Shown here: positions 16,550 through 36,697 of the stretch, in pieces | Layout of the letters: the number at the start of each line of letters is the position of its first letter | Position numbering within the stretch: the first letter of the stretch is position 1 | Origin: Parahaliea mediterranea | GTDB lineage: Bacteria > Pseudomonadota > Gammaproteobacteria > Pseudomonadales > Halieaceae | NCBI RefSeq assembly: GCF_003402235.1 | Contig: NZ_QEWO01000002.1 | Coordinates: 310,001-374,000 of the forward strand | Length of the DNA stretch: 64,000 bases | Direction of reading: 5' to 3' | The notes under the pieces: generated by a model | Databases searched by the model: none | The model's input: only the letters and a program-made list of their open reading frames with translations | What the model was told of the DNA's origin: nothing | Program-made: the position numbers and the translations under genes

Positions 16550-16550
16550 G

Positions 16551-17363: not shown

Positions 17364-18100
17364 CAGACCAGTCTCCCCAGCAGTTCAATGATGTAAAACA
17401 GCGCCAGCGACAGGGCTGTCACCGCCGCCAGCGCGGCAAAGGTCAGGGCCGTCTGGGACGAACCCGTGGCCATCAGGATCAGGTTGCCGAGCCCGTCGTT
17501 GGAGCCGACGAATTCCCCCACAATGGCGCCAATCACCGCCAGCGGCATGGCCACCTTGCAGCCATCGACAAAGTTCGGTAGGGCCGAGGGCACCCGCAGG
17601 CGCCAGAAGGTGGCCCAGGGCGAGGCGCGCATGGCGCGAAAGTGCTCCTCCAAGTGGGCCGGCACACCGCCGAGCCCGCCGAGGGTGGAAATCACAATCG
17701 GGAAGAAGGCAAACAAAAAGGCCATGATGACCTTGGACGACAGCCCATAGCCAAACCACACTACAATCAAAGGCGCCAGGCCGATCTTGGGAATACTCTG
17801 CAGCGCGATCATGAAGGGGTACAGGGTGCGCCTGGCCAGCGGCACGAAGTAGATCAGCACCGCTATCAGCACGCCCAGCACCACTGCCGACAGAAAGCCC
17901 CACAGCACCTCGCCCAGGGTAATCAGGCTGTTCTCCCAGATTATGGCCCGCGACTGCCACAGGGCATCGGCAATATCGCTGATGGCCGGCAGCAGGTAGG
18001 GCTTGATGTCAAACACGTGGACGGAGGCCTCCCAGATCACCCCCAACACCACAAAAAACAGCAGCCCTTCCAGCAGGCCGCGATTGGCGCTCGCTTTCAT
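17348..18100 (-). CDS. ABC transporter permease, NitT/TauT family
   Basis: A 250-residue inner-membrane permease with about six hydrophobic segments and the EAA loop segment MRASPWATFWRLRVPSALPNFVDGCKVAMPLAVIGAIVGEF. The ATG overlaps the VOC gene's stop (ATGA), which fixes the start; the frame continues upstream but inside that gene. It forms the channel for the binding protein and ATPase of the same operon. Confidence 0.93.
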   Translation of the reverse strand: MKASANRGLLEGLLFFVVLGVIWEASVHVFDIKPYLLPAISDIADALWQSRAIIWENSLITLGEVLWGFLSAVVLGVLIAVLIYFVPLARRTLYPFMIALQSIPKIGLAPLIVVWFGYGLSSKVIMAFLFAFFPIVISTLGGLGGVPAHLEEHFRAMRASPWATFWRLRVPSALPNFVDGCKVAMPLAVIGAIVGEFVGSNDGLGNLILMATGSSQTALTFAALAAVTALSLALFYIIELLGRLVWWRSN

Positions 18101-18654
18101 GACACCTCCCCGCTCTGGCGCTTGAGTATCTGCTTGATGCGCTCCGGCGGCTCCACCACAAAGCGTTCCAGGCGCCAGCGGTCGAAGGTTTCCAGCTCGC
18201 CGCCATCCCACACCTGTGGCTGGCGCGCGCTGGCGCGGGGTATCTGCTCCATGTCGGAATAGAATTCCACGTTATTGCCGTCGGGGTCGCGAAACACAAT
18301 GAAGGTGTTTTCGCCGGGGCCGTGGCGCCCCGGGCCGCGGTCGATCTCGATACCGCGCAGCTGCAGCATCTCGGTGATCTGCAGGATTTCGTCCACGCTC
18401 TCCACCCGGTAAGAGAAGTGCTCCACACCGGTGTAGTTGCCCGGTGGTGGGTCGATGGCATCCGGCGGCAGTTGCAGCAAGGCAAGGTCGTGGTGGTCTT
18501 CGCCGGCGCGCATGAACACCATGCGATCGTCAATCCAGTCGGAGACTTCCAGGCCCACCACATCGCGATAGAAGGCGGCGGAGCGCTGTACATCGCGCAC
18601 TTTCAGCACCAGGTGGCCAATGCGGGTCGGTTGCGGTCGGTACATGGCCCTCAC
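18097..18654 (-). CDS. VOC family protein, extradiol dioxygenase-like
   Basis: A 185-residue (or 182) two-module vicinal-oxygen-chelate protein. Possible metal ligands are the His in RIGHLVLKVRDVQRS, the His in YTGVEHFSYRVES and the Glu in DGNNVEFYSDM, which match the 2-His-1-carboxylate set of extradiol ring-cleavage enzymes. The GTG at 18654 overlaps the binding-protein stop (GTGA); an ATG three codons later is an alternative. In an operon with an FAH-family hydrolase and an alpha/beta hydrolase, ring cleavage of a catechol- or hydroxyanthranilate-type intermediate is the likely job (inference). Confidence 0.85.
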   Translation of the reverse strand: MRAMYRPQPTRIGHLVLKVRDVQRSAAFYRDVVGLEVSDWIDDRMVFMRAGEDHHDLALLQLPPDAIDPPPGNYTGVEHFSYRVESVDEILQITEMLQLRGIEIDRGPGRHGPGENTFIVFRDPDGNNVEFYSDMEQIPRASARQPQVWDGGELETFDRWRLERFVVEPPERIKQILKRQSGEVS

Positions 18655-19679
18655 TCCCCCGCCGGCGCAGCAAAAAACTGCATGGTGTAAACATCCTTCG
18701 TCTCCAGCGCCTTGTCCACCGCGTAGGCGGCGCTCAAGAAGGCCAGGGTGTTGCCCACCTTGCCCTCTTCCAGCCGGCCGAGCTGTTCGGCGCTGCCGAG
18801 CAGTTCAGACATCTCGGCAATCTGCTGCGCCGTTACCTCGCGGTTGAGCACCGGGAACTGGCGCTGCATGATGTCGGTGGCCTGCTGGGGGTTGTCGCGC
18901 ATCCAGGCGTAGCCGCGGTAGGTGGCATCCACAAAACCCTGCACCAGCGCCGGATGCTCGTTGATCAGCTTGTCGGTGGTGGCCAGGCCGCTGCCGTAGA
19001 TATCCAGGTTGAACTGGCTGTACTCGATCCAGCCCACACTCAGGCCGGCCTCGGCGGCACGCTTCTGGTACACCGCCAGGCTGTTGCCCAGCCAGCACTC
19101 GCCAGCGTCGATATCGCCTTCAATCAGCGAGGCGGCAATCACCGACGGGTCCAGCTGCATCATGGTGACGGTGTCACGCGGCAGGTTGTTGGCTGCCAGC
19201 CAGGCCGGCAGAATGGCCTGCACCGGCGAGTTCTGGCCGCCGCCCACTATCAGGCCGGCCAGATCGGCGGGCGTATCGACGGTATGACGCTCGGCGATGT
19301 AGCACAAACCCGCCGGCCAGCGCTGGTTGAGGGCGCCAATCATGCGTGTGTTGCCGCCGTTGGAGCGGTTGAGGATGATGGCCAGCGGGTCGCCGTAGCC
19401 GAACTCGAACATGCCCTGGTCCAGTTCGTTCATGGTGCGAATGCCGCCGAAGCCGCGCGTCACCGACACTGCCAGGCCCTCCTCGGCGTAAAAACCCTGA
19501 TCCATCGCCACGATCACGCCGGCCATACTGCCCTGGGGCAGCCAGGACATATTAAAAGTCACCGGTGTCAGTTTGGATTCCACCTGGCCTGTGTTGTGCT
19601 TGTCGTTGTCTGTGTCGCCGCAGGCCGACAACACGGCGGCAAAACCCAGGCCCGCCGCCACTGTCTTCAGGATGTTCAT
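18651..19679 (-). CDS. ABC transporter substrate-binding lipoprotein, NMT1/SsuA-like
   Basis: A 342-residue binding protein with a lipoprotein signal, MNILKTVAAGLGFAAVLSAC (lipobox LSAC, Cys20). Typical NMT1-like segments follow: TFNMSWLPQGSMAGVIVAMDQGFYAEEGLAVSV and GFGGIRTMNELDQGMFEFGYGDP. It belongs with the permease and ATPase of this operon. The ATG overlaps the FAH gene's stop (ATGA). It probably binds an aromatic or heteroaromatic acid related to kynurenine catabolism (inference from context only). Confidence 0.92.
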   Translation of the reverse strand: MNILKTVAAGLGFAAVLSACGDTDNDKHNTGQVESKLTPVTFNMSWLPQGSMAGVIVAMDQGFYAEEGLAVSVTRGFGGIRTMNELDQGMFEFGYGDPLAIILNRSNGGNTRMIGALNQRWPAGLCYIAERHTVDTPADLAGLIVGGGQNSPVQAILPAWLAANNLPRDTVTMMQLDPSVIAASLIEGDIDAGECWLGNSLAVYQKRAAEAGLSVGWIEYSQFNLDIYGSGLATTDKLINEHPALVQGFVDATYRGYAWMRDNPQQATDIMQRQFPVLNREVTAQQIAEMSELLGSAEQLGRLEEGKVGNTLAFLSAAYAVDKALETKDVYTMQFFAAPAGE

Positions 19680-20626
19680 GCGCAGTCCCTCGTATTGTGT
19701 TCAATGGCTTCCGCCGCCACCGGGTTGCGGATGGTGCCCACCGAGCCGACCCGCGCTTCCATTACATCACCCGCCTTCAGGAACAGGCCGCGCCCCATGC
19801 CAACGCCGGCGGGTGTGCCGGTCATGATCAGGTCGCCGCTCTGCAGGGTGAGGATGCTGGACAGGTACTCGATCTGCTCGAAGATATTCCAGATCAGCTC
19901 GCTGGTGTTGCCGTCCTGCATAGGCTCGCCGTTCAGGCTCAGGTGCAGCGACAGGTTGTGGGGGTCCGCCACGCAAGCGGCAGGCACAAACCAGGGCCCC
20001 ATGGGGCAGAAGGTGTCCCAGCTCTTGCCGCGGAACCAGTCGTGCTTGAAGGGGTAGTCGCTGCGCCGGTTCATGTCGCGGGCAGACACATCGTTGACCA
20101 CGGTATAGCCGGCAATATGCGCCAGGGCGTCTTCCTTGCGGATACGGCGCCCGCCCCGGCCGATCACCACGCCCAGCTCCACCTCCCAGTCGGGCTTTTC
20201 GGTCTCTGGCGGCAGCAGCACGGTGGCACCGGTGCCGATCACGCTGGTGGAAGCCTTCATGAAAATATAGGGGCTGGATTCGCTTTTGGCCGCAAGCAGG
20301 GTGTTCATCTCGGCGGCGTGCTCAATGTAGTTGGACGCGGTGCCGAAGATGCGCGGTGGCGTGTAGGGCGCCGGCAAGTGGCGGGCATCCACCGGCAGGG
20401 CCTGCAGCTGGCCGGCGGCGGCACGGGTGCTGGCCGCACTGGCCAGTTGCGCCAGAGTGGTTGCGCAGCCGGTGGCAATAACCTGCCCCACGCTGGCGGC
20501 CCAGGCCGGTGGCGCTGCGCCCTCAACGTCGCGCCAGCACTGGGCCAGGTCGTACAGGGTGTCTCCCAGCACCAGTGCCGGCGCCGTTCCCGCCCCGGTC
20601 TCGTAGGTCGCCAACGCGTACCACAT
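19676..20626 (-). CDS. Fumarylacetoacetate hydrolase (FAH) family protein
   Basis: A 316-residue protein with the FAH fold: DWEVELGVVIGRGGRRI (metal-binding Glu residues), YTVVNDVSARDMNRR and a C-terminal MTGTPAGVGMGRG loop. The family covers fumarylpyruvate hydrolase, acylpyruvases and 2-oxo-hepta-enedioate isomerases/decarboxylases, all acting on ring-cleavage products. The start is the ATG after CAGGAGAGGGATT; a longer frame upstream has no site. First gene of the operon, facing the GntR regulator across a promoter with a TTGAATACAA site. Confidence 0.9.
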   Translation of the reverse strand: MWYALATYETGAGTAPALVLGDTLYDLAQCWRDVEGAAPPAWAASVGQVIATGCATTLAQLASAASTRAAAGQLQALPVDARHLPAPYTPPRIFGTASNYIEHAAEMNTLLAAKSESSPYIFMKASTSVIGTGATVLLPPETEKPDWEVELGVVIGRGGRRIRKEDALAHIAGYTVVNDVSARDMNRRSDYPFKHDWFRGKSWDTFCPMGPWFVPAACVADPHNLSLHLSLNGEPMQDGNTSELIWNIFEQIEYLSSILTLQSGDLIMTGTPAGVGMGRGLFLKAGDVMEARVGSVGTIRNPVAAEAIEHNTRDCA

Positions 20627-20658
20627 AATCCCTCTCCTGTTGGTGTTATCGATTTGAC

Positions 20659-20668
20659 TTGAATACAA
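20659..20668. promoter_or_regulatory. Candidate GntR/FCD operator TTGAATACAA
   Basis: It differs by one base from the palindrome TTGTATACAA found at 32939 and 44425. It lies between the FAH-led operon and the divergent GntR gene, the usual place for an autoregulatory FCD operator. A second, weaker TTGTGTAC element follows at about 20680. FadR-subfamily sites commonly have a TNGT-N-ACNA layout, which this fits. Confidence 0.55.
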
Positions 20669-20760
20669 TCTTGGAATTTTGTGTACCTGTAAATTAACGA
20701 TCTGGCGACTGGCTATCACGTTTTTGCTATAGCCAAGCCGATTCGAGGAACAAAAACACC

Positions 20761-21423
20761 ATGAGCGGAACCATCGCAGAGCGCATTGCCCAGCAACTGG
20801 CGGACCAGATTCTGTCGGGGGAGCTGGCGCCGGGAGAGCGCATCGAGGAAAAAAAGGTCACCGAGCAGTTCGGCGTATCGCGCACGCCAGTGCGCGACGC
20901 CCTGCGCCACCTCGCCGCCACCGGCCTTGTCGCCATTCGCCCCCACCGGGGCGTTACCGTGGTGGACCTGGAAGTGGAGCAGCTCAGCGATATGTTTGAA
21001 GCCCAGGCAGAGATCGAGGCCCTGTGCGCGCAGCTGTCGGCACGGCGCATGAGCAACATCGAGCGGCGCAAGCTGGAGATGATTTCAGAGCGCAGCCGCC
21101 CCGCCCTTGAGGACACCGACCACGCCCTGTACTCCGCCACCAACGAGGATTTTCACAAACTGATCTACGCCGGCTCCCACAACGACACGCTGGAGCAGAT
21201 GGCCCTCAACCTGTGGAACCGGGTGGCGCCCTTTCGCCGCTCCATCTTCTTCAAGCTGGGCAACCGCATGGAACAGTCCTTCGACGAGCACGGCGAGATC
21301 ATCGCCGCCATCACCGCTGGCGACGAGACGCGCGCCCGGCAGGCGATGCACGCGCACATCACCAATTCCAGCGTAAACGCCATCGACTACCTGTTGCGGC
21401 ACGGGCGCGATGGCGCGGCATAA
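20761..21423 (+). CDS. GntR family transcriptional regulator, FadR/FCD subfamily
   Basis: A 220-residue regulator. Residues 1-70 form the winged helix-turn-helix (IAERIAQQLADQILSGELAPGERIEEKKVTEQFGVSRTPVRDALRHLAATGLV). Residues 80-210 form the FCD ligand domain with likely metal-binding residues in NEDFHKLIYAGSHN and SFDEHGEIIAAITAGD...HAHI. Such regulators sense organic acids, usually the substrate or an intermediate. Divergent from the FAH/ABC/kynureninase operon, which it very probably controls; similar palindromes elsewhere in the window suggest a wider regulon. Confidence 0.93.
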   Translation: MSGTIAERIAQQLADQILSGELAPGERIEEKKVTEQFGVSRTPVRDALRHLAATGLVAIRPHRGVTVVDLEVEQLSDMFEAQAEIEALCAQLSARRMSNIERRKLEMISERSRPALEDTDHALYSATNEDFHKLIYAGSHNDTLEQMALNLWNRVAPFRRSIFFKLGNRMEQSFDEHGEIIAAITAGDETRARQAMHAHITNSSVNAIDYLLRHGRDGAA

Positions 21424-21457
21424 AAGAAATGAAAATGAAGCGCTTTATAGCTTATTA

Positions 21458-21619
21458 ACAGGCCGTTGAAAAACGTTTCTAGGGACGGCTTTCTCTGCTC
21501 GATTCACTAAGGATCGCCGCTCCTACGTGAAATCTGGAGCAGTTCATGCCGTTTACTTCTCTAGATTTCACGTAGAAACGCATCATTCGTCCCCCCAAAA
21601 CGGTTTTTTAACAGCCTGC
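21458..21619. mobile_element. MITE-like repeat element at the left end of the island
   Basis: About 160 bp with imperfect terminal inverted repeats: the left end reads CAGGCCGTTGAAAAACGTTT and the right end, read on the minus strand, CAGGCTGTTAAAAAACCGTT, each followed by a G-run and GACG. Inside is a perfect inner inverted repeat, CTACGTGAAATCT (21523-21535) and AGATTTCACGTAG (21563-21575). It contains no gene. CTAGATTTCACGTAG recurs at 31642 at the other end of the AT-richer block. The ends resemble those of insertion-sequence relics, but the family is not recognised. Confidence 0.65.
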
Positions 21620-21628
21620 CAGGACGTC

Positions 21629-22984
21629 TTATCGAAGACGCAGCGTAAAAACGAGCATTCCCGATATCACCAGGGGAATTGAGAATGCAATGAAATTTGA
21701 TTGAGCAGTAACACCTGACTCGAGCGAGAAACCGGCCACGGCTGGGGCAATCACCGCGCCGAGCCTTCCCATGCCCAAAGCCCAGCCAACTCCGGTCGCC
21801 CGAACATTCGTAGCGTAGAGCTTCGCTGCTACCGCGTAGAGGGCGTTATAGGCGCTTTGTAACATAAAGCCCGTTAAAAGTATCAGGAGAAGAAGCTTTT
21901 CCTTCCCCACCATCACTTGACTAAGAATCAACATCAGGCCGCTGGTAGAGAGCATAAACACGCCAACCAGACTGCTAAGAGCGTACCGGGCTGACAACAT
22001 TCCGAACACCAGAATCCCCAACACGCCGCCAAAGCTAAATATTGTGTACGCGCTGTACGATACAGTATCGTCAAATCCCATCTGTGTTACCAACTTGGGA
22101 ATCCAACTCATAAGAAAGTACAGCGTTGACGAGCAGCAGCAAAATACCAGCCAAAGTACTAGTGTTTTCTTTCTGTAACCAGCCTCGAATAGCGCCCTGA
22201 TACTGCTCCACGCCCCCCGCTTTGCGCCAGGATCGGCAGTCTCAGGCAATTTGCTCAGTGGCGGCCGATTAAACTGGCGAAGAACAGCGTTCATACGTTG
22301 CAGTGCGCCTTCTGGCTGCCTGTTACCCAGATAGGCCAGCGACTCAGGTATCAATGCAATAGCCAGCAGGGTGAGAACCGCTGTGACTGCCCCGCCTGCC
22401 AGGAACATGCCCTTCCAGCCGGCCACAGGCATAATCACGCCAGCGACGATGCCCGTGGTCATCGCCCCCAAAGGATATCCAGCGGTAACCAACGTAATGG
22501 TAAGTGTTCGATACTTCTCGGTTGAGAACTCACTGACCAACGAAGCCTGGGTAGCGAGTAGCGCTCCTGCACCCAGGCCACTTACAAAACGAAGTGCGAT
22601 CAAAGAATAGACATCCCGCGACAGGGCCGTCATGAGTACGGAGAAGCTGATGGCACAAAGGGCGCCTATGATAACCTTGCGGCGGCCCAAGATGTCTGCA
22701 ACGGGGGCGATCAACATGCCCCCGACCATCATTCCCGCCAGAGCGAAGCTAAACAGCAAGCCAATACGGCTTTCATCGAGGCTGAGCGCCGCGCCTATCT
22801 CCTTCGCTGCTACCGCCATCACGGTAATGTCGAAACCATCGACAATATTGAATAGAAGGCACAAGGCAATGACCACGACCTGCCGCGAGCAGGGCTTAAT
22901 CTGGATCGCTTCGGCCGCATCCAAATCACGCCAAAGGTTAGCGACTTGCTGAGGGGCTTCCGTGGACGATTCTCTTTTATTCAT
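21629..22984 (-). CDS. MFS transporter, aromatic acid:H+ symporter (AAHS)-like
   Basis: A 451-residue transporter with 12 membrane segments. The first helix carries FNIVDGFDITVMAVAA, the DGFD motif of the AAHS family, and the loop after helix 2 carries VADILGRRKVIIGAL (MFS signature). A second GMLSARYAL loop follows the central domain. AAHS members import aromatic acids such as 4-hydroxybenzoate; related members carry sugar acids. Its start overlaps the TIM-barrel gene's end by 8 bp, so the two are co-translated. Codon use is less GC-rich than in neighbouring blocks, in line with transfer. Confidence 0.88.
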   Translation of the reverse strand: MNKRESSTEAPQQVANLWRDLDAAEAIQIKPCSRQVVVIALCLLFNIVDGFDITVMAVAAKEIGAALSLDESRIGLLFSFALAGMMVGGMLIAPVADILGRRKVIIGALCAISFSVLMTALSRDVYSLIALRFVSGLGAGALLATQASLVSEFSTEKYRTLTITLVTAGYPLGAMTTGIVAGVIMPVAGWKGMFLAGGAVTAVLTLLAIALIPESLAYLGNRQPEGALQRMNAVLRQFNRPPLSKLPETADPGAKRGAWSSIRALFEAGYRKKTLVLWLVFCCCSSTLYFLMSWIPKLVTQMGFDDTVSYSAYTIFSFGGVLGILVFGMLSARYALSSLVGVFMLSTSGLMLILSQVMVGKEKLLLLILLTGFMLQSAYNALYAVAAKLYATNVRATGVGWALGMGRLGAVIAPAVAGFSLESGVTAQSNFIAFSIPLVISGMLVFTLRLR

Positions 22985-24002
22985 CAGGCAACTGAGCCCG
23001 CGAGGGAAGATTCATATTCATCCAGGCACTTGAAAAGACGGCGCTCTCCCACACTGGCAGATCGGCGCGGTCATTCTCAACGACTAGCCAGCCACTGAAG
23101 TCCTCACCCAGCGCCTTGAATACCGCTGCCAGATCGAGATCACCTCTACCCGGTTCAATCCAGATACCGCTTTTAACAGCATCCTGGTAGGTGCCTGTTC
23201 CCTGGTGGCTGGACCTGGCAATCGCCCCCCTAACATCTTTGATATGTACGCCTGCAACCCTGTCGTGGTAGTCACGGATAATCATGGCCGGATCGACCCC
23301 CGCCCAATAGAGGTGCCCCACGTCCGGACCAAAATCCAGTATTGCCGGGCTCACATAGTCGAGCACCTGCCGGACTTCGCTTTCGGTTTCGATCCAGCCC
23401 CCCACATGCTGGTGCAGCGCGGGACGCACTCCCTCCGCAACAAGCACGTGAGCTATCTGATCCATTAGTTTGGCTATGCGCTCAAGACGGGCCAGGTCAA
23501 AGGCAACTCCCTGGGCGGGCACCGCCACGCGCGGCGCACTTTTGAGTTGGGACATTGAAACGAACATTCGGTCCTGGCCGCACACCACATGCTGCTCTGC
23601 AGCTTGCTTTACAAGTTCGAGCGTTGTCTTCTGCGACCGGCCTTCTTCAGGCAGACGGATGGAAAGATAGCCCGGGGCAGCCTCAAGGTCCGCCTGCGCC
23701 AGTGCCGAACGAAACTCCTGAGCTGAAATGTCTCCCGGGACCGCGACGGGAACGGCGTTAAACCCCGCCGATTTGACTAGGTTCAGCAGCTCACCCAACG
23801 GAGGCAAAAGCCGCGGGTCGATCCAGCCATCGGGCGTCGCCATCCACTGAATGGGATTGAGCGCCATTTTCCATCTATTCCGGGCTTCCGAGCTTTCAGG
23901 TCGGTCAGGACAATTCCCTGCCAACGCGTGGGTACCTGTGGCGGTGATCGCCGCAAATGCTGACGCACCTAGAAAATTTCGTCTGCCAAAGCCTGCTGCC
24001 AT
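22977..24002 (-). CDS. Sugar phosphate isomerase/epimerase-like TIM-barrel protein, Tat-exported
   Basis: A 341-residue AP-endonuclease-2/xylose-isomerase-like barrel. It begins with a Tat-type signal (AAGFGRRNFLGASAFAAITA). Possible metal-site segments are PALHQHVGGWIETESEV, LDFGPDVGHLYWAGVDP, VAGVHIKDVRG and WLVVENDRAD. Members act as isomerases, epimerases, or as lyases on 3-keto-glycosides. The start chosen has a strong AAGGAGGAGCAC site; an ATG 24 bp upstream does not. Beside a periplasmic GMC dehydrogenase, action on an oxidised sugar is plausible (inference). Confidence 0.85.
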   Translation of the reverse strand: MAAGFGRRNFLGASAFAAITATGTHALAGNCPDRPESSEARNRWKMALNPIQWMATPDGWIDPRLLPPLGELLNLVKSAGFNAVPVAVPGDISAQEFRSALAQADLEAAPGYLSIRLPEEGRSQKTTLELVKQAAEQHVVCGQDRMFVSMSQLKSAPRVAVPAQGVAFDLARLERIAKLMDQIAHVLVAEGVRPALHQHVGGWIETESEVRQVLDYVSPAILDFGPDVGHLYWAGVDPAMIIRDYHDRVAGVHIKDVRGAIARSSHQGTGTYQDAVKSGIWIEPGRGDLDLAAVFKALGEDFSGWLVVENDRADLPVWESAVFSSAWMNMNLPSRAQLPDE

Positions 24003-24136
24003 GTGCTCCTCCTTGGATTCATTCAAGCTTCCTCCCCGTCATCAGTGGGTTGCCGGATCGATTCGGCAGCCAATCACCATTCGCCCCAGCGCCATCGTCT
24101 TAACTTCTATCGCTTCAGCACATCCAATCAATACCA

Positions 24137-24154
24137 AATGTAAACGTTTACATT
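24137..24154. promoter_or_regulatory. LacI-type operator palindrome
   Basis: Perfect 18-bp palindrome AATGTAAACGTTTACATT with the central CG typical of LacI-family operators. It lies between the divergent TIM-barrel/MFS and GMC dehydrogenase units. The same 18 bp, plus two or more matching flanking bases on each side, occurs at 31387-31404. No LacI gene is present in the window. Confidence 0.8.
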
Positions 24155-24258
24155 ATATATTTCAAGTATTAAGCTTCATCTATCCCTCTGCCTATGGTTC
24201 TGGGCGGATGCGGGGCTTACACCCGTGTGAATGAGTAAATCTATTTTTGGATAAGGAC

Positions 24259-24828
24259 ATGAACAGAAGGCAACTACTGGCCGCTTCAGCCTGGGCACTG
24301 GCAATCACTGGATCCTGGCCCGTTGCCTCGGGCCTGCGCTCCTCGGCATCGACGTCTTTCACTTCCAGTAGTAGCGAAACACTATCCGCTCACAAACGAG
24401 AGCTTGTGCGATGCATTTGTGAGGCCATTATTCCAGAAACCGATACGCCTGGAGCCACTACTGCGCGAGTCCCGGATTTCATAAAGCTGATCTACGATGA
24501 CTGGTTCACAGCCGAGGAACGTCGGGAGTTTCTGTCTGGCCTGTATATCGTCGATGGGTACGCCCGACGCAGGCATTCGCAATCCTTTATCAGGCAACCC
24601 CTGTCGATACAACAGGACATTTTTCGTTCTCTGCAGCGGGAAGCCGAGGAAGCCCAAGACAGAAATATCGACCTTCGGGAGTTCGTTGCCACGATTCGGG
24701 AACTGGTCGTCACCGGATACTTCATGTCTGAAGCGGCTTCCAAGAACACCCTCGCCTACAACCCGGCGCCAATGAGCTATGAAGGAGATTACGCGCTCGA
24801 CAATGTCAACAAACAGTGGACCTACTGA
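24259..24828 (+). CDS. Gluconate 2-dehydrogenase subunit 3 family protein
   Basis: A 189-residue protein with a Tat/Sec-like signal (NRRQLLAASAWALAITG). Its body (LVRCICEAIIPETDTPGATTARVPDFIKLIYDDWFTAEERREFLSGL) matches the small gamma subunit that escorts FAD-dependent GMC dehydrogenases through the Tat system. Translation starts at the ATG after AAGGAC; a TTG 12 bp upstream is less likely. It is followed 30 bp later by the catalytic subunit. The operator palindrome lies about 105 bp upstream. Confidence 0.9.
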   Translation: MNRRQLLAASAWALAITGSWPVASGLRSSASTSFTSSSSETLSAHKRELVRCICEAIIPETDTPGATTARVPDFIKLIYDDWFTAEERREFLSGLYIVDGYARRRHSQSFIRQPLSIQQDIFRSLQREAEEAQDRNIDLREFVATIRELVVTGYFMSEAASKNTLAYNPAPMSYEGDYALDNVNKQWTY

Positions 24829-24858
24829 GAACATCGTCCGAACTGCGGAGACCATGAT

Positions 24859-26556
24859 ATGCCTTTACAAGAGAACCCTGAATTTCATGCCATCGTCATA
24901 GGTTCCGGTATCACAGGTGGCTGGGCTGCCAAGGAACTGACAGAAAAGGGGCTCAGCGTGTTGCTACTCGAACGCGGTAAAATGATCGAGCATGGCAAGG
25001 ACTACCGGGGCGAGCATATGCCGCCGTGGCAGATTCCTTTTGGCGGACTTCCGCTGCGGGATTTGTATGATCGAGACTATTTCATTCAGCGAAAGAGTTA
25101 TGCTTTTGACGAAACGACAAGGCACTTCTGGAATAATGACCGCCTGAACCCCTACCTACACGAAAACAACGAATTTAACTGGATGCGGACAGATACTGTA
25201 GGCGGGCGCTCACTGGTATGGGGGCGCCATGTATACCGGTGGAGTGACCTCGATTTCAGCGCCAACGCCAACGACGGCCACGGCGTGGACTGGCCGATTC
25301 GATACACCGATATCGAGCCCTGGTATAGATATGTGGAGCGCTTTATTGGCGTCAGCGGCCAGGCGGAACAACTGCCCCACCTTCCAGATGGTGAGTTCCT
25401 TCCCCCCATGGAACTGAACGTAGCGGAGGAGCACATTCGCGGCTGCATCGCCAGGCGCTTCCCCGGCCGGCTCTTGACTCCGGGAAGGCTTGCGATTCTC
25501 ACACGAGCACACAACGGTCGTGCGCCCTGCCACTACTGTGGCCCTTGCCACCGGGGGTGCTCGACCGGATCTTACTTCAGCACCCAGAGTTCGACCCTTC
25601 CCGCGGCAATAAAGACAGGTAAGTTGACCCTGAAAAGCGATGTCGTGGTCGAAAAATTGAATTACGATCCCGAGCGTGCACGAATTGCATCTGTAGACGT
25701 TATCGACACTCGAACCCACGCCCGCAAAAGACATACCGCGAGAATGGTATTCCTGTGTGCCTCCACGGTTGGATCGACACAAATACTGCTGAACTCCAGC
25801 TCGGAATCTTTCCCAAACGGATTGGGCAACCGCAGCGGTGCGCTTGGCCGCTACCTTATGGACCATACCATGGCATCCAGCACAACCGCCATCGTGCCGG
25901 GAATGCTCGACAGATATGTCTACGGAAACCGCCCCTCCGGAATCTACCTCCCTCGGTTTCGCAATCTCCAGCCAGAGCGCGAAGTAGATTTTGTGCGTGG
26001 ATATGGCTATCAGGGAGGCGCCAAGCGCATGACCTGGCAGAATATGATTCACGCCACCAGCGACATTGGAGAACGCTATAAGGATCGACTTTCCGCACCC
26101 GGCCCTTGGTCCATTCGTCTGGTCGGCCTCGGGGAATGCCTCCCCTATCGAACGAATGCCATTACATTGAATCACCGGAAGCTCGACCGCTTTGGAGTGC
26201 CCCAGGTCCAGTTTGCTTTCAGTTACCGGGAGAACGAGCACCGAATGGTTCGGGATATGGCGACCCAGGCTGAGGTAATGCTGCGTTCCGCAGGGTGCAT
26301 GGACATAAAATCCCATATCGAAATGAACACCGGGGGAGATACCATACATGAGATGGGAACCGCCCGAATGGGAAGAGATCCGCAAACATCGGTTCTTAAC
26401 CGCTGGAATCAGGTGCACGATGTACCGAACCTGTTTGTCACCGACGGTTCATGTATGGCGTCGTCGTCTTGCGTCAACCCTTCGCTGACATATATGGCGT
26501 TGACTGCCAGGGCAGCGGACTACGCAGCCAAAGAGTTCAAGGCCGGACGCATATAG
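24859..26556 (+). CDS. GMC family FAD-dependent dehydrogenase, catalytic subunit
   Basis: A 565-residue GMC oxidoreductase. FAD-binding AIVIGSGITGGWAAKELTEKG lies near residue 11, and the C-terminal active site has His in TIHEMGTARMGRDP and Asn in SSSCVNPSLTYMALTARA. A cysteine cluster, CHYCGPCHRGC (C-x2-C-x2-C-x3-C, near residue 225), matches the iron-sulfur site position known from bacterial FAD glucose dehydrogenases. With the gamma subunit it should oxidise a sugar or glycoside in the periplasm (for example at C3 or C1). The usual cytochrome c subunit is not in the window. Substrate not established. Confidence 0.9.
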   Translation: MPLQENPEFHAIVIGSGITGGWAAKELTEKGLSVLLLERGKMIEHGKDYRGEHMPPWQIPFGGLPLRDLYDRDYFIQRKSYAFDETTRHFWNNDRLNPYLHENNEFNWMRTDTVGGRSLVWGRHVYRWSDLDFSANANDGHGVDWPIRYTDIEPWYRYVERFIGVSGQAEQLPHLPDGEFLPPMELNVAEEHIRGCIARRFPGRLLTPGRLAILTRAHNGRAPCHYCGPCHRGCSTGSYFSTQSSTLPAAIKTGKLTLKSDVVVEKLNYDPERARIASVDVIDTRTHARKRHTARMVFLCASTVGSTQILLNSSSESFPNGLGNRSGALGRYLMDHTMASSTTAIVPGMLDRYVYGNRPSGIYLPRFRNLQPEREVDFVRGYGYQGGAKRMTWQNMIHATSDIGERYKDRLSAPGPWSIRLVGLGECLPYRTNAITLNHRKLDRFGVPQVQFAFSYRENEHRMVRDMATQAEVMLRSAGCMDIKSHIEMNTGGDTIHEMGTARMGRDPQTSVLNRWNQVHDVPNLFVTDGSCMASSSCVNPSLTYMALTARAADYAAKEFKAGRI

Positions 26557-26587
26557 CCTGCCCGGCGAGGTCAGGAGCCAGCGGACG

Positions 26588-29022
26588 CTATTGCTCAGCA
26601 CTTTCGGGATTCAGGCCGTTGCCCGGTAACACCACATCTGATTTGCAGGTCGAGGTTTCGAAAAGCTCCATCTGGTCGCTATAGTGTTGGTCTGGATGCC
26701 CGCTCGGGCCGATAAACCCGCTTTGACCCGGTGCGGTCACCGAACAGAGGGTTACACTTCCCTCCCGCATTTCCACCAGGAAATTCGTGGTGCCCCTGTT
26801 CATATACTGTGGCAGGGATAGCAGTTCATCCACTCCGGCGATGGGTACGCCAAGCGCGTTTTTGGGCGGGAAATAGTGCTTCGCAACGGGTGTCAGCCAG
26901 CCCTTAGACTCCTCACCAAAGCGCTCCGACAATTGACGGTCAACATCGGCCAGGGCTTTGAGTATTACACTATCAGGCGTCGCACCGTTTAAAAAGTCGT
27001 ATTCCTGGGGTATACCGGACGCGGAGCCCTCCAGTGCGTTGAAAAGTATCTTTGAGAGCTGTGCCGTCCGTATGCTTCCCGGCGATGATTTGTCCGTGGG
27101 CTCAGGATAACCCAGACGTTGATAGTCCCTGTATACAGACCTGGGCAAGTCGTCTCGAAAGACACGCCGCTCCATGGCCAGAAGCCAGGCGCGAAACACT
27201 GTCACTGCCGGGCTGTCATAGTTTCCGTCACCATCGCTGTCGCTGTTTTCCATATTCCAGGCTTTGAGAAGACGCAAGAGCCGGTGACGAGTGTCGCTGG
27301 CATCAAGGTCGCTTGCCGCCCGTAGAATGTAGGGAATGAAGTACGGCGCGTTCAAGTCGACCGTCGAAACTAATTCGCTGATCTTCCAAATTTCGTGTGC
27401 GCTGAACTCCGGCCTGCTCTCAAGCGACTGGACGATGGCATTGACACGATCCACCACAGAAAAATTCGCTCCGTCCGCCCTGAGACCACGTACTATCTGG
27501 TTATTCCAGCTTGCCAGATAGCCCTGTTCTGGATTTAGCGATCTGGGGTTTTGCGCGAACGGTTTGAAACCACGCCATTCGCGACTTCCGTCTCCTGGTG
27601 AGGGGAACTGGATATCGACATAAGGATCACGAAGTGGTTGCTTCCCCAGCCCCACTGCACCGATATTGCCTGCAGTATCTGCGAAAAACCAGGTGATTGA
27701 GACACTAACACGCGATGCATACTCCAAGTATTCATCCCAGCTCTCGGAACGTGCGGCCTGAGCCCACGCAATCATGGTCTCGAGTTCCCGCCCCTCCCAA
27801 CTGCGTTTTATCGTGTAGGCACTGTCGTTTTGCTTGTCCCAACTTCTTACAAAACCGTGTACGGTAGAATAGATATCAATCTTTACAGCCTCTTCGCCCC
27901 TCACCTCTATAATATCTGTTCTCTTGCTCATCGGACGATACGCACCGTTGAACCAGTATTCGTAGGGATTATTCGGATTCAGACGCTCTTGGAAAACATC
28001 GTTCGTATCTAGTGAACCTACCGTCGATCCCCAGGCAACTCGGCCATTTGTCCCGAAGAGGACGGGGATCAACCCCACTGGCGTCATGCCGGTTATATTG
28101 TAACCGACACCATGCAATCCAATCCCATAGACGAAGCCCGGGTTACTGAATCCCTGCTGGGGAGCGTTGTAAAGTATCGCGCTCCCGCCAGTGTTCTTTG
28201 TTGGCCCGATAACCCACGCGCTGCTAGCGGTGGGCATGTTATACGCGGACTCAAGGCCGCTAAGTGCGACTTGCGCCCGCCGGAACGCCGCTGCGCCTTT
28301 TGACGAAACAGGTTGAAGAGCCAACGACGCGACGGCTCCATCGACTTTTTTTCAGCCCCTCTGTCCGCCTCTCCGGGAATTATGGTAGGAGCGTGAGGAT
28401 CCTCTTTCCAGCGTAGTTGCGCGTATATTTCCCGGCCATTTTTATCGCCCTTTTCACGCTGTAACTGCGTAAGCAAGGTAAGGTTATCTACTTCCATGCT
28501 GTTGCCGAAAAACCTATTGAAGATCAGACCAACACCGATCATCACCACATCAGATTCGGTCCAGAAAGTCGGTTCAAAATCATATTCCGCGAACTGTCGC
28601 GGCAATAACCGCTCTTTGTCGGAAAGGACTTCCCGCACACGCTTGTTAATCCCGGCGGCATAGCCTTTGAACATCGCTCTGGCATCATGGGGTAGTTCCT
28701 CCAGTTGTGACTCTATTGACTGTGGGGAGATCGATCTGCGGGTGGCGATGTCTGTTATCAGGTATTCGCTTCCCAGAACCTCCGCGATAGAGCCATTTCC
28801 AGTTCGCTTGGCCATCTCCAGCTGAAACAGCCGATCCTGTGCTATGGCGTACCCGAAGCCAAAATACAGAGACACGATGTTGGCGGCGTAGACGTGCGGG
28901 ACACCGTAACTATCACGCCGTATTTCAAACTGCTCGTGTTGAGCTGAACAGCTCAATGAAATGACATATATACCTAAGAGTATGGATTTGAACGAGAATT
29001 TCCAGCGATTCTCTGAAGTCAT
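26588..29022 (-). pseudogene. Penicillin acylase family (N-terminal nucleophile) amidohydrolase, frameshifted
   Basis: The protein is split between two frames. The N-terminal part starts at 29022 (MTSENRWKFSFK) with a lipobox ISLSC and continues IRRDSYGVPHVYA, LYFGFGYAIAQDRLFQLEMAKRTGNGSIAEVLG (alpha chain). Its frame becomes nonsense near 28350. The beta chain lies in the other frame with the catalytic Ser in ASSAWVIGPTKNTGG (codon 28225-28223), LHGVGYNITG and ASWNNQIVRG. A run of seven T (28346-28352; A on the coding strand) is the likely slip site: eight A would join the frames as AEKKVDGAVASLALQPV. The protein would be about 810 residues, normal for the family, which cleaves amide bonds of penicillins, acyl-homoserine lactones or other acyl amides. 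Confidence 0.85.
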
Positions 29023-29150
29023 AGAATATTCGTTGTAAAAAAGACCCAGGCCTTCTTCAAATTTCGAAAGAAAGCACTGGGTCAACCGCCAATAATAGCT
29101 TTCGTACCAGCTCCAGCGAATAACACTGCAAGCGCGTTCTAGCGCGGATG

Positions 29151-31289
29151 TCAAAGCCAGCGGTAAGTGAGTTTGATTCCGTAAGTGAGAGGAGTCGATA
29201 GACCATAGGTGTAGCTACGCCACAGCCCACTTTTCCCGGCACTGGTAATAACCACATCGTCTTCCAGATTCCGAGCATAACCCTGGAGTGTCCAATCTGA
29301 ATTGTTACTCTGATAAGTCAGAAGGATATCTGTTCTAGTAAACTCGTCCTTCTCCTGGAAGCCGAGATTGGCCACACCAAGGTAGGATTCCGTTTCATAG
29401 TGTGACTGAATGCGCGCTGTTAGAACTCCCCGAGTAAATTCAAAATCATGCTCGTATCCAATACCAACTGAAGTATCCGGTGTTTGTGTGGGTGAGTTAC
29501 CAGCAAAGTCAACCAAGCATTTTCCGCCAGCAATATATTGCGCACAGAAATCTGTGTATTCAGCATCCAGAAAAACTACTGAACCGTCAAAACGATCCAA
29601 CGGTGTAATAAGTGCTGTCCAATCAAACTCTAGGCCAACTATTTCAGATTCGCCCGCATTCACAATCGACGATAGGCCATCGGCGTTTCTGACCGATGCC
29701 TGCTGATCGCTGTAATCATAACGAAATGCAGCTATGTTCATCTGTATCCTGCCATCCAGATACTGCCCTTTTACGCCCGCTTCAAATGCTTCCAAGGTTT
29801 CCGGACCATACGGATTGGATTCAGCCCTACCCGGTACATTGTTAAAACCACCCGCCTTATAACCCGTACTGAACTTGGCGTAGGCCATGACATCGTCACT
29901 AATGTTCCAGTTAGCCCCAACATGATATGTAGACTTGGAATTATCTCCGGAGTTGTCGTAAACAGAAGGCGTCCCGAATACGAGTTGGTTGCCGCGGCGA
30001 GACAATTCATCTTCCGAGTACCGCGCACCCAACTCAAAGGTAAGGACGTCCGAGAAATCATAGCTGGTGTGAACGAAAACAGCAGTCGACTCTGATTCGA
30101 CATCAAAGTCGAAGACCATCAGGTCCACCGGGATCGCTGTATCCGTGTAATCTCGGAAAATGGAGGTTAGAGCATTGGTCTCCTTGAAGTAATTGCCACC
30201 AAGTTGCCATTGAAAATCGCTGCTATCGCTGGATGCAATACGTAATTCGTGTGAGATATCTTTTACGTCTTCGCTCAGGTCAAAATAGTTGTCCGAACGA
30301 AAGAGACCATCCAGGTCGCGCCTCTGTCTGTAGTCAGATCTACGAACACCCCCAATATAATTCACACTCACGTTGTCAAAATCATACTTTGCGGTAACCT
30401 GATACGTCTGGTAGTTGTGGTCCAGATACTGGTTCGGTTTGCCATGCGACACCCCTCCTTTGTCCATTCTGGGAACGGCGTTATCGGTCCACGCCTCGAC
30501 TGGGGTTCCTGTTACTGTCGGCCCTACTCCTCCCAGTTCGGTAAACTGTGCTGAGAAGAGGAGATAAAGCCGTTCTGTAGGCTGATAATCAAGATGAAAG
30601 CGGCCTGATTTCATGTCGGCATCATCACCTGCATCCGCCGGGCCTTCATCCTCTCGGTACCCATCGTGTTCCCGAGTCATGAAAGAAGCCCGGGCATTTA
30701 CCTTGTTAGACAATGGGAGATTGATCATACCCTCGGTATTGAAGGTGTCGTAATTGCCGAAACCGGCTGAAACCTCTGCTTCAAATTCCGGTACGGGCTT
30801 TTCAGTAATGAAGTTAATGACCCCTCCAGTCGCATTTTTCCCATACAGAGTACCTTGGGGGCCACGCAGCACCTCAACTCGCTCCATATCGTACAGTGCG
30901 TTGGAGAAGGAATTGGCCCTCTCAATGTAAAAACCATCTTGGGCGATCGCTACCGCCGGGTTCCCAGTTTCGTTGGTATCCTGGCTGTTGACACCTCTTA
31001 TGCTGACGACGACGTTGGCTGAGTTTTTGGTAAATGTTACGCCCGGTGCAATACCAGCAAGATCTTCAACCTGGCTTACGCCATTGTCATCCAGGGCGTC
31101 ACCGGTAAAAACACTCATCGCGATGGCCGTGTCCTGGACCGAAGTCTCGCGCTTGGTTGCAGTTACAACCACTTCTTCGATCGCGTAGCTGCTATTCGCC
31201 TGCGCCTGCGCCCAAGTTCCATGAACCACCCCACTGACAGCAAGCGACAACGTTGTGTATCTAACGAACTGCCTTTTTATATTTCTCAT
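29151..31289 (-). CDS. TonB-dependent outer membrane receptor
   Basis: A 712-residue receptor with a signal peptide (MRNIKRQFVRYTTLSLAVSG to WAQAQ), TonB box IEEVVVTATKRETSVQDTA, plug motifs VVVSIRGVNSQDTNE and VEVLRGPQGTLYGKNATGGVINF, and a barrel ending LTYGIKLTYRWL. Start chosen at the ATG after TTGAGGGGTACTTCT. It is 128 bp upstream of the acylase gene on the same strand, and its promoter carries the LacI-type palindrome about 100 bp before the start. It probably imports the substrate of the acylase and GMC dehydrogenase. Confidence 0.93.
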   Translation of the reverse strand: MRNIKRQFVRYTTLSLAVSGVVHGTWAQAQANSSYAIEEVVVTATKRETSVQDTAIAMSVFTGDALDDNGVSQVEDLAGIAPGVTFTKNSANVVVSIRGVNSQDTNETGNPAVAIAQDGFYIERANSFSNALYDMERVEVLRGPQGTLYGKNATGGVINFITEKPVPEFEAEVSAGFGNYDTFNTEGMINLPLSNKVNARASFMTREHDGYREDEGPADAGDDADMKSGRFHLDYQPTERLYLLFSAQFTELGGVGPTVTGTPVEAWTDNAVPRMDKGGVSHGKPNQYLDHNYQTYQVTAKYDFDNVSVNYIGGVRRSDYRQRRDLDGLFRSDNYFDLSEDVKDISHELRIASSDSSDFQWQLGGNYFKETNALTSIFRDYTDTAIPVDLMVFDFDVESESTAVFVHTSYDFSDVLTFELGARYSEDELSRRGNQLVFGTPSVYDNSGDNSKSTYHVGANWNISDDVMAYAKFSTGYKAGGFNNVPGRAESNPYGPETLEAFEAGVKGQYLDGRIQMNIAAFRYDYSDQQASVRNADGLSSIVNAGESEIVGLEFDWTALITPLDRFDGSVVFLDAEYTDFCAQYIAGGKCLVDFAGNSPTQTPDTSVGIGYEHDFEFTRGVLTARIQSHYETESYLGVANLGFQEKDEFTRTDILLTYQSNNSDWTLQGYARNLEDDVVITSAGKSGLWRSYTYGLSTPLTYGIKLTYRWL

Positions 31290-31641
31290 AGAAGTACCCC
31301 TCAAGGAACACGCCAACTTTCGATCCTCGGCAATAACCACAAAGCCTAGCTCCACGACCAGCTTGCCAGCATTGCTCAGACCGCCAAATGTAAACGTTTA
31401 CATTAATACGATACGCTTGATTATTTCAAATGTAAAGTGTTTTTGAGATGCGAGAATTTCGTAAGCGCTTAGTGACCACGCGCTCCAGACCCAGGGTGAA
31501 CGAGTCCCCCAGAGACAGCGTGAGAGACTTGGCCGAGGAAACCCCTGCCAGGCCCACGACATCGTTGATCGAGCTTGCTAAGCTATGCGTGGAACTGATC
31601 AGGCGCCACTTACAATGGAGCGCGCTCCTCCGTTAACCTCG
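31290..31641. other. Non-coding stretch at the right end of the island
   Basis: Contains the receptor promoter and the palindrome at 31387. From about 31440 to 31640 the base composition changes; a short open frame on the plus strand (from 31448) has no recognisable family and no ribosome-binding site. This part may be a relic of an inserted element. Nothing else was recognised. Confidence 0.4.
31387..31404. promoter_or_regulatory. LacI-type operator palindrome (second copy)
   Basis: AATGTAAACGTTTACATT, identical to the copy at 24137-24154, upstream of the TonB receptor of the island. The shared flanks (CC before, TA after) point to one regulator controlling both promoters. Confidence 0.8.
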
Positions 31642-31656
31642 CTAGATTTCACGTAG
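31642..31656. repeat. 15-bp match to the left-end repeat element
   Basis: CTAGATTTCACGTAG is identical to 21561-21575 inside the MITE-like element. It is a partial copy: the outer terminal repeats of the left element are not recognised here. It marks the probable right boundary of the AT-richer block. Confidence 0.6.
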
Positions 31657-31749
31657 GTGGGAAAGCGCCTCAATTGAAGGAGGCTCGGCGCAAGACACCA
31701 GAGAAATAAGAATTAATGCCGCGGAAAATAGCGCTGTAACTTTATTCAC
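31642..31749 (-). CDS. Short lipoprotein reading frame, probably truncated
   Basis: A GTG-started, 35-residue frame: a hydrophobic signal, LFSAALILISLVSC (lipobox LVSC), then AEPPSIEALSHLREI and a stop. GAGG lies 8 bp before the GTG. The stop falls within CTACGTGAAATCTAG, the sequence shared with the repeat at 21561-21575, so the gene was probably cut by the island or repeat insertion and the rest lost. An intact entericidin-like small lipoprotein is an alternative. Confidence 0.45.
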   Translation of the reverse strand: MNKVTALFSAALILISLVSCAEPPSIEALSHLREI

Positions 31750-32035
31750 TTCATACAACCTCAAAGCCAAGCAAAAAACAAACATCTTGGCATTTATCAT
31801 AGGCTGAAGATCACCGGGGTTACTCCCCCTAAAAACCCGGTGAAAACAGCGCCTGCAGCTACTTTATCAAGCAGAAAACAACCTGTTTTTGTACAGCTCA
31901 TTATAGTTGAGGTTTTAGGCCAGCCTTACACTGTCATTAATCTATTTCCGCCATTTTCACAATCGTCTGAAACGCCACCGCACAGCCTGGGCCACGAGCC
32001 GCCCAAGGATAAGTAAAGCTTGATATTCGCGAGAA
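31750..32035. other. Intergenic region between the lipoprotein relic and the TauE gene
   Basis: No gene recognised. CACCGGG near 31814 and CCCGGTG near 31838 can pair and may form a terminator for the minus-strand TauE gene. The sequence is AT-richer than the flanks. Confidence 0.4.
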
Positions 32036-33713: not shown

Positions 33714-34814
<1,101 letters not shown>

Positions 34815-34936
34815 TGGCCCACCGCCGGCCTTAGCGGTTTGCGATACCCGGGCCGGCGGATTCTATTGTTACGTTTAGGCTGGCCCGCCCGCATCGCCCC
34901 TGGTGACGGTGGCCGTGGCAGCGCAAGGGGAACACC

Positions 34937-35758: not shown

Positions 35759-35767
35759 GAGCCCGCT

Positions 35768-36697
35768 ATGAGCAACAAAATCACAGTCCCGAGCGGCAAG
35801 GTAAAAGCCGCCATCATCGGCCCCGGCAACATCGGCACCGACCTGCTGATGAAGGCCATGCGCAGTGACGTGATCGAACCGGTCTGGATGGTGGGCGTGG
35901 TGCCGGATTCCCCCGGCCTGGCCCGCGCCCAGGACATGGGCCTGAAGACCACGGCCGAGGGCGTGGACGGCATGCTGCCGAGCATGAAGGAAGACGGCGT
36001 GCAGATCTGCTTCGACGCCACCTCCGCCTACGTGCACGCCGAGAACAGCCGCAAGGTGAACGAGCAGGGCGCGGTGATGATCGACCTCACCCCCGCCGCC
36101 ATCGGCCCCTTCTGCGTGCCGCCGGTGAACCTGTCCAACGCCGTGGCCGAGCGCAAAATGAACGTGAATATGGTTACCTGCGGCGGCCAGGCCACCATTC
36201 CGCTGGTGGCCGCTGTATCGCGCGTGCAGAGCGTGTCCTACGCCGAGATTGTGGCCACCGTGAGCAGCAAGTCCGCCGGCCCCGGCACCCGCAAGAATAT
36301 CGACGAGTTCACCCGCACCACCTCGCGCGGCATCGAGAGCGTGGGCGGCGCCGAGAAAGGCAAGGCCATTATCATCATCAACCCGGCCGAGCCGCCGCTG
36401 ATCATGCGCGACACCGTGCACTGCCTGACCGTGGATGAGCCGGACCAGGATGCCATTCGCCAGTCCATCGACGACATGATCGTCGAGGTGCAGAAGTACG
36501 TGCCGGGCTACACCTTGAAGAACGGCCCGGTGTTCGACGGCAAGCGCGTGTCCATCTACATGGAGGTGGAGGGCCTTGGGGACTTTTTGCCCAAGTACGC
36601 GGGCAACCTGGACATCATGACCGCCGCGGGCCTGCGCACGGCGGAGATGTACGCCGAGGAAATCCTGGCGGGCAACTTCGTGCCCAGCGCCGCCTGA
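35768..36697 (+). CDS. Acetaldehyde dehydrogenase (acylating)
   Basis: A 309-residue enzyme of the MhpF/DmpF/NbaJ family that turns acetaldehyde, CoA and NAD+ into acetyl-CoA. Seen: Rossmann [20 protein letters not shown], catalytic Cys138 in [12 protein letters not shown], and [20 protein letters not shown]. It lies 9 bp after the AspDH-like gene and 25 bp before its physical partner, the aldolase, with which it forms a substrate-channelling complex in the known systems. Confidence 0.96.

Follow-up and report, generated by a model that had tools for sequence, protein, structure and literature searches.

A low-GC island of Parahaliea mediterranea as a possible satellite of a LacI-controlled 3-keto-glycoside regulon, with a penicillin-acylase-type gene in two reading frames

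Which substrate could call for a TonB-dependent receptor, a penicillin-acylase-type lipoprotein, a GMC flavin dehydrogenase with its gamma subunit, an exported TIM barrel and an importer of the major facilitator superfamily (MFS) at a single locus? Parahaliea mediterranea (assembly GCF_003402235.1, 5.09 Mb in 29 contigs) has this combination on contig NZ_QEWO01000002.1, within a stretch of 64,000 nucleotides (positions 310,001 to 374,000) that we call the window and to which plain coordinates refer. A sequence-only reading had proposed a new system for an amide-linked glycoconjugate at 22977-31289. All six families that it named were recovered by Pfam and NCBIfam profile matches, the basis of our family assignments; its interval holds five of the genes, and the MFS gene lies outside it (Table 1). 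We lean towards viewing this island as a horizontally gained satellite of a regulon for non-hydrolytic 3-keto-glycoside breakdown, which a LacI protein would control and which occupies three places in the genome. Gene content, a common operator, the location of the regulator, an ortholog of the hydratase AtHYD and conserved residue sets form the observed basis of this view.

The operator ties the three loci together. A perfect palindrome, TGTAAACGTTTACA, stands at 24139 and 31389 within the island's two operators. At up to three mismatches the window holds three matches against 0.39 expected, two of them perfect and the third, at 15468, with three mismatches. Across the whole genome, the 14-base core has five exact and two one-mismatch sites, and all seven lie within three loci bearing GMC and gamma genes: two in the window, four at C25:510829-520611 and one at C11:270916. 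One extra operator-like site, with two mismatches, lies at C11:672911, and a reversed-pattern control gave one genomic site at up to two mismatches. The earlier claim of one operator type over the island is thus borne out, both by the two perfect window sites and by the genome-wide restriction to GMC/gamma loci. Three LacI-domain genes were found in the genome; only the one in C25 adjoins operator sites, and its product is the predicted ligand of all of them.

The loci C25 and C11 each carry a TonB receptor, a GMC dehydrogenase, a gamma subunit and a TIM barrel, and four genes of the gamma family (Gluconate_2-dh3) were found in the genome. According to calls of open reading frames (ORFs), C25 contains two sulfatase genes (Pfam backs the second, while the first was recognised by eye), the receptor, GMC and gamma genes, a small membrane protein, the LacI regulator between two operator sites, a Gfo/Idh oxidoreductase, the TIM barrel, an MFS carrier and a third sulfatase-domain protein. 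A match over the full length of the C25 TIM barrel to Agrobacterium AtHYD (8ro4; 565.7 bits, E 4.4e-169), a 2-hydroxy-3-keto-glucal hydratase of solved structure, makes it an AtHYD ortholog that lies in C25, outside the island. The best solved match of the C25 Gfo/Idh protein, 3v5n, is named only 'Oxidoreductase'. In the available text of PMC13273386 and PMC10628242, the non-hydrolytic pathway runs through C3 oxidation, beta-elimination, hydration and reduction. C11 contains the receptor, a small membrane protein similar to that of C25, gamma, GMC, ThuA and the TIM barrel. The small membrane protein precedes gamma in both loci (L012:11490-11882 in C11; L010:7083-7346, minus strand, in C25; 46% identical over 69 residues); it has no tblastn match in the window, and the C11 copy has no Pfam match. 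ThuA is coupled to gamma and GMC in the C11 satellite (L012:8917-15992), and ThuA-like genes also stand beside GMC in L037, L038, L039, L042 and L043.

Relatives of the window GMC were surveyed in the best 80 of at least 589 confirmed loci, taken from named genomes of many phyla and 49-59% identical, which does not amount to a census. Neighbours were counted by tblastn on the DNA, as ORF calling missed genes in GC-rich loci (GMC itself was called in 73 of the 80). Gamma matches were present in 68 of the 80 loci, C25 Gfo/Idh matches in 19 and TonB matches in 9. The C25 hydratase had a match in 17 loci, 14 of them at 61-72% identity (one covering 201 residues only) and 3 at 24-34%; in 15 of the 80 it occurred together with Gfo/Idh. 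By association, the GMC family belongs to 3-keto-sugar chemistry, with oxidation at C3 as the predicted reaction. The island enzyme is 57% identical to each of its C25 and C11 paralogs, and its solved relatives are glucose dehydrogenase and fructose dehydrogenase. The sugar oxidation and elimination proposed earlier have therefore gained support from the regulon, through an operator common to the AtHYD ortholog and through the link of GMC relatives with hydratase and Gfo/Idh; the amide step may be broken.

Export of the dehydrogenase with its gamma subunit by twin-arginine translocation (Tat) had also been claimed. The twin-arginine motif stands on gamma (NRRQLL at the N terminus, identified by eye), whereas GMC has no evident signal peptide and would have to be exported together with gamma. 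All three GMC paralogs keep a C-x2-C-x2-C-x3-C motif (CHYCGPCHRGC, residues 224-234), a candidate binding site for an iron-sulfur cluster of the kind present in related dehydrogenases. In the same-genus genome G686, the gamma and GMC genes lie near those for a TIM barrel and, beside it, the beta subunit of a C-glycoside deglycosidase (PF19906), at L146:14906-16311.

Put as a pathway, the favoured model would run as follows. The TonB receptor would import a decorated glycoside or a close analogue, from which the lipoprotein acylase, if made, would remove an amide-bound group. GMC and gamma would oxidise the sugar ring at C3, and the exported IolE-like TIM barrel would release the aglycone by metal-assisted beta-elimination. 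Inner-membrane carriers would take up the small products, the carrier of the aromatic acid/H+ symport (AAHS) type most likely an acid, possibly aromatic. The hydratase and oxidoreductase of C25 would finish the enone and the keto-sugar by hydration and reduction outside the island, and the C25 LacI protein would repress all three loci until an inducer arrives.

The elimination would fall to the exported TIM barrel, which is best read from its sequence as a divergent IolE relative acting as an eliminase on 3-keto-glycosides or keto-cyclitols. It carries a twin-arginine motif, GRRNFLG (identified by eye), and keeps H197, H199, D227, H253 and E309, equivalent to His132, His134, Asp163, His189 and Glu233 of AtOGE. 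According to the available text of PMC10628242, this residue set binds the metal or acts as the catalytic histidine. Two residues conserved in IolE are changed, E143 to Q and the middle H of HHH to Q198 (HQH at 197-199). The protein is 22% identical to the TIM barrel of C25 and 25% to that of C11. A structure comparison of its model gave IolE the highest score (Z 28.4); the isomerase Art22 scored 23.6, the 3-keto-glucoside lyase AL1 21.7 and AtHYD 20.2. AtOGE (8bvk) matched in Foldseek (E 2.6e-10), yet it is not among the 50 VIA-align rows listed, which says nothing either way. Across 390 genomes of the order, homologues at E <=1e-30 were found in this genome only; in a phylum sample, 18 of 398 genomes (its own counted) had one at E <=1e-20, at 24-34% identity over the matched part, and these appear IolE-like in alignment. 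No homologue in either set at these thresholds exceeded 34% identity. The MFS gene starts within the end of the TIM-barrel gene, overlapping it by 8 nt, and its family suggests an aromatic acid as cargo, although a sugar acid is the other candidate.

What the acylase would remove is a separate question. Both of its halves have penicillin G acylase (PGA), with structures from E. coli, Kluyvera and Alcaligenes, as best solved match, and a lipoprotein signal was read by eye. The serine nucleophile is residue 34 counted from a TTG at 28324 in the beta frame, and the catalytic residues of PGA are kept (Ser beta-1, Gln beta-23, Asn beta-241 and Arg beta-263, plus Arg alpha-145). The pocket is altered at beta-24 (F to Q), beta-50 (F to V), beta-69 (A to V) and beta-71 (F to S). 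Among 14 homologues compared, only an Acinetobacter protein has the same four changes; beta-24 is Phe in the other 13 and Gln in this one. In PGA, beta-Phe24 forms part of the phenylacetyl pocket. The same Acinetobacter protein is the closest relative found (44.8% over the beta part), and its gene has neighbours that pass the cut-off for FeaR and for primary-amine oxidase, and one that falls below the cut-off for phenylacetaldehyde dehydrogenase. The available text of PMC9493321 presents PGA as a scavenger of phenylacetic esters and amides. Given this role and the altered pocket, the island enzyme probably takes a different acyl group, perhaps a larger one.

The surroundings of the acylase relatives are in keeping with the phenylacetic role. 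A Paracoccus relative precedes annotated paa genes, and a TonB receptor match was present in 8 of 11 acylase loci. The acylase relatives of L027 and L028 have PaaA_PaaC-family genes nearby; those of L029, L151 and L152 have genes for an AMP-ligase and an Aldedh-MaoC protein, which we name as PaaK/PaaZ-type. Taken together, PGA relatives lie near phenylacetate-type genes in L027, L028, L029, L151, L152 and L175, in L027, L028, L029, L151 and L152 together with a TonB receptor; such loci with a receptor are likely uptake loci for phenylacetyl amides. One Acinetobacter record, NZ_CP064203.1 (L174), is catalogued as a plasmid at 3.97 Mb and is probably a mislabelled chromosome.

Missing from the earlier reading is that the acylase is divided between two reading frames that differ by -1. 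The alpha frame continues as far as 28093; the beta frame opens at 28351, following a TGA that ends at 28352, at a run of seven A. Because the beta frame opens only there, the -1 shift that joins the two must fall on the A7 run or in the roughly 90 nt behind it. In the alpha frame the run reads as the heptamer A AAA AAG, in the phase of known -1 slippage sites. We considered a programmed frameshift with a structured stimulator and rejected it, since the downstream RNA shows no unusual stability (z -0.33, with 73 of 200 shuffles equally or more stable); the one sign of programming is the heptamer in its phase. Other A7/T7 runs, at 13855, 16751 and 20849, lie inside the open ORFs 13172-14626, 16551-17363 and 20761-21423; a systematic fault in the assembly is therefore improbable. 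The split may reflect inactivation, slippage or an isolated error in the sequence.

How widely the acylase travels with the dehydrogenase was examined in several samples. The acylase occurs in 8 of 293 order genomes (E <=1e-40) and in 5 of 369 class genomes (E <=1e-80), its own genome counted in both; among three genomes of the genus, a PGA-type acylase was found in this one only, other matches reaching at most 29% identity. The Acinetobacter and Paracoccus acylase stretches hold no GMC, gamma or TIM barrel, and no plasmid accession was common to the GMC records (60 of 63 listed) and the acylase records (60 of 107 listed). The acylase and GMC thus occur together once in the sampled genomes, and the earlier proposal of a conserved six-gene system finds no support in this check. 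What does recur is a layout of receptor, decoration-removing hydrolase, gamma and GMC, in which related loci fill the acylase's place with esterases or sulfatases. Alteromonas plasmid pAltI4 (L178) has a TonB receptor and a tannase/feruloyl-esterase-family gene with gamma and GMC, the same-genus genome G686 a carboxylesterase with GMC, gamma and TonB, and C25 its sulfatases beside GMC and gamma. In L037, an amidase-signature family gene (7103-8527) lies near the GMC closest to the island's (59%) and may be another amide-cleaving case. Our literature search found no paper joining any two of 3-keto-glycoside, penicillin acylase and GMC.

Several findings weigh against the satellite model. The acylase had no match in the best 80 GMC loci, and GMC, gamma and TIM barrel had none in the 11 acylase loci (stretches of 14-20 kb); the acylase itself may be inactive owing to its split frame. 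The TIM barrel scores 126.8 bits against the IolE equivalog TIGR04379 and so misses the cut-off of 290 of its best model; its HxH/D/H/E set is also found in IolE; IolE, an enzyme of cyclitol chemistry, is its closest fold, ahead of AL1; and the comparison does not set lyase-type folds apart from other isomerases. Its AlphaFold model, built on 16 sequences, is only moderate (pLDDT 66.3, pTM 0.70). The importer, for which TIGR00895 is clearly the best model, stays below that model's cut-off of 418.55. Apart from the motif of GMC itself and its reverse-strand shadow, 21424-31950 holds no CxxCH cytochrome-type ORF of at least 50 aa. The operator is not specific to this pathway: a search that allowed two mismatches found it in 5 of 100 genomes of the family, this one counted. 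In G704 it stands amid sugar genes of a different kind (judged by eye), and in the same-genus genome G666 (L143:9775-12046) it immediately precedes a TonB receptor that shares 37% identity with the C25 one, in a fetched stretch that has no GMC. Some GMC relatives lie near P450 or DUF1302/DUF1329 genes (L043, L039), which makes non-sugar alcohols possible substrates. These neighbours, together with the sulfatases, also brought steroid or bile-acid conjugates into consideration; we set them aside, since AtHYD and the LacI operator indicate sugars instead.

Three other explanations deserve weight, and the frame change bears most directly on the one that we take most seriously, while holding it the less probable: a decaying acquisition, in which the A7 indel killed the acylase and the receptor, dehydrogenase, TIM barrel and importer still work as an ordinary satellite for 3-keto-glycosides that cleaves no amide. 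The absence of a single-frame product from the two frames, a single frame in 14 of 14 homologues, the lack of unusual RNA structure after the A7 run and a surplus alpha chain that would have no obvious use all fit decay. They are set against a beta frame that stays open over 578 codons with its catalytic residues intact, a heptamer that stands in -1 slippage phase, and the A7/T7 runs inside three other open ORFs, which make a systematic assembly fault unlikely. A second explanation gives the acylase a separate role: it would scavenge arylacetyl or arylalkyl amides, the AAHS carrier would import the acid, and only the regulator would be common, the sugar enzymes serving other substrates. The phenylacetate genes near PGA relatives (Paracoccus, L027, L028, L029, L151, L152), those for FeaR, primary-amine oxidase and, below cut-off, phenylacetaldehyde dehydrogenase beside the nearest homologue, the scavenging role in the available text of PMC9493321, and the position of the island between kynureninase and 3-hydroxyanthranilate dioxygenase genes agree with it. 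Receptor and acylase, however, run in one direction behind an operator of the sugar regulon, and the flanking genes have no operator site save the three-mismatch one at 15468; we think such a division of labour unlikely.

Less probable still is a cyclitol pathway, in which an aromatic-acyl amide of an aminocyclitol is the substrate, the acylase frees the acid for the AAHS importer, and GMC oxidises the ring to a keto-cyclitol, which the IolE-like protein dehydrates. Hygromycin A is an example of such an amide. This would suit a TIM barrel nearest IolE by sequence, profile and fold, an importer nearest the aromatic-acid symporters and an acylase of the aryl-acyl PGA family with an altered pocket. 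It sits badly with an operator common to the AtHYD-bearing sugar cluster, and the changes at E143 and at the middle H of HHH, like the missed equivalog cut-off, separate the protein from IolE. An equally long shot is a new route for aromatic-acyl amides of aminosugars or aminocyclitols under the 3-keto-glycoside LacI protein, in which an acylase of re-shaped pocket (beta Q24/V50/V69/S71), made by -1 slippage at A AAA AAG, would take off an aryl-acyl group outside the cytoplasm, GMC would oxidise the ring thus freed, and a Tat-exported, IolE-derived enzyme would open that ring by beta-elimination.

The satellite model, to which we return, uses parts of known kinds; none of the other genomes sampled joins them to a penicillin-acylase-like enzyme. 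With the 3-keto-glycoside pathway known from Agrobacterium tumefaciens and from gut bacteria (AtOGE, AtHYD, PuCGE), the regulon shares the hydratase, as an AtHYD ortholog; its Gfo/Idh gene is a candidate for the reductase. Unlike that pathway, the island adds an acylase and has the Tat-exported IolE-like barrel instead of AtOGE/CGE, and the genes are spread over three loci under one LacI-type operator. Another multi-component sugar 3-dehydrogenase, as proposed for the island, is LacABC, in which LacB is a cytochrome c subunit encoded in the operon. In the available text of PMC9007349, this lactose 3-dehydrogenase of Caulobacter is encoded near a DUF1080 ketoglycoside hydrolase, epimerases, a reductase and a transporter. 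In contrast, the island has neither a cytochrome-type ORF (21424-31950) nor DUF1080 among its genes, and carries an amidase and an IolE-like barrel instead. Its acylase resembles PGA in the catalytic Ser, Gln, Asn and Arg residues and differs in the four pocket changes, the two frames and the LacI-type operator. The pAltI4 locus shares the layout in which a hydrolase that removes the decoration precedes the dehydrogenase, but has an ester-cleaving enzyme in place of the amidase and no TIM barrel annotated in the stretch shown. Finally, the exported barrel has the fold and HxH/D/H/E residues of the myo-inosose-2 dehydratase IolE and departs from it in its Tat signal, in an identity of 25-28%, in the loss of two conserved residues and in a score far below the equivalog cut-off.

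If the satellite model is true, the island is an example of how a non-hydrolytic sugar pathway, described only recently, grows by modules: a single regulator and a core of hydratase and Gfo/Idh serve uptake loci that differ in the stripping enzyme (sulfatase, esterase or amidase). The exported IolE-like barrel becomes a candidate for a new eliminase, and the acylase branch, in which the pocket is altered, bears on the physiological role of penicillin G acylases. The true substrate would reveal which amide-bearing glycosides or cyclitol conjugates bacteria consume.

Table 1. Features of the island and its edges in window coordinates
Feature	Position	Strand	Evidence or location
Inverted repeat with two of three TAGATTTCACGTAG copies	21518-21580		Left island edge; pattern search
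MFS importer, aromatic acid/H+ symport (AAHS) best model	21629-22984	-	TIGR00895, 343.8 bits
Tat-exported IolE-like TIM barrel, proposed 3-keto-glycoside or keto-cyclitol eliminase	22977-24002	-	PF01261 (AP_endonuc_2), 68.2 bits
Operator AATGTAAACGTTTACATT	24137-24154	.	Between the divergent TIM-MFS and gamma-GMC units
Tat gamma subunit (Gluconate_2-dh3)	24259-24828	+	PF13618, 88.6 bits
GMC flavin dehydrogenase, proposed glycoside (or cyclitol) 3-dehydrogenase	24859-26556	+	GMC_oxred_N/C
Acylase, beta-chain frame	26588-28351	-	PF01804, 283.9 bits; best solved match penicillin G acylase 3k3w_B, E 5.1e-116
Acylase, alpha-chain frame, putative lipoprotein signal, ATG at 29022	28093-29022	-	PF01804, 128.8 bits; 1cp9_A, E 1e-54
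A7 run, read as A AAA AAG in the frame of the alpha chain; the -1 shift probably occurs here	28346-28352	-	Sequence
TonB-dependent outer-membrane receptor	29151-31289	-	PF00593 and PF07715
Operator AATGTAAACGTTTACATT	31387-31404	.	Upstream of the receptor-acylase unit
Third TAGATTTCACGTAG copy	31643-31656	+	Near right island edge

The island consists of three units: TIM barrel and MFS leftward from 24002, gamma and GMC rightward from 24259, and receptor and acylase leftward from 31289. Its GC content is 0.497-0.566 in the five 2-kb bins of 22001-32000, compared with 0.576-0.694 in the remaining 27 bins of the window, which suggests horizontal acquisition. A megablast search against a plasmid collection, which did not extend to phages, gave no match to the island. 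The nearest genes are those for a GntR/FCD regulator on the left (end 21423) and a TauE exporter on the right (start 32036); the FCD regulator has no match in the same-genus genomes G666 and G686 at E 1e-40, and an empty site is therefore not demonstrable. The element TAGATTTCACGTAG has three matches at up to two mismatches (21523, 21562 and 31643) against 0.08 expected, and its copies at the island edges are possibly traces of insertion.

Aromatic catabolic genes flank the island at 13172-21423 and 33862-41332, with a kynureninase on its left (14539-15780, TIGR01814 above cut-off) and a 3-hydroxyanthranilate 3,4-dioxygenase on its right (34290-34814, above cut-off), along with further ring-cleavage genes; the island apparently interrupts an aromatic catabolic region. 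A kynurenine-glucoside substrate was considered and set aside, as its evidence is positional only and our literature search gave nothing relevant to it. Elsewhere in the window, further TonB receptors are encoded at 3142-5595, 8677-10986 and 44502-47171, each without an operator.

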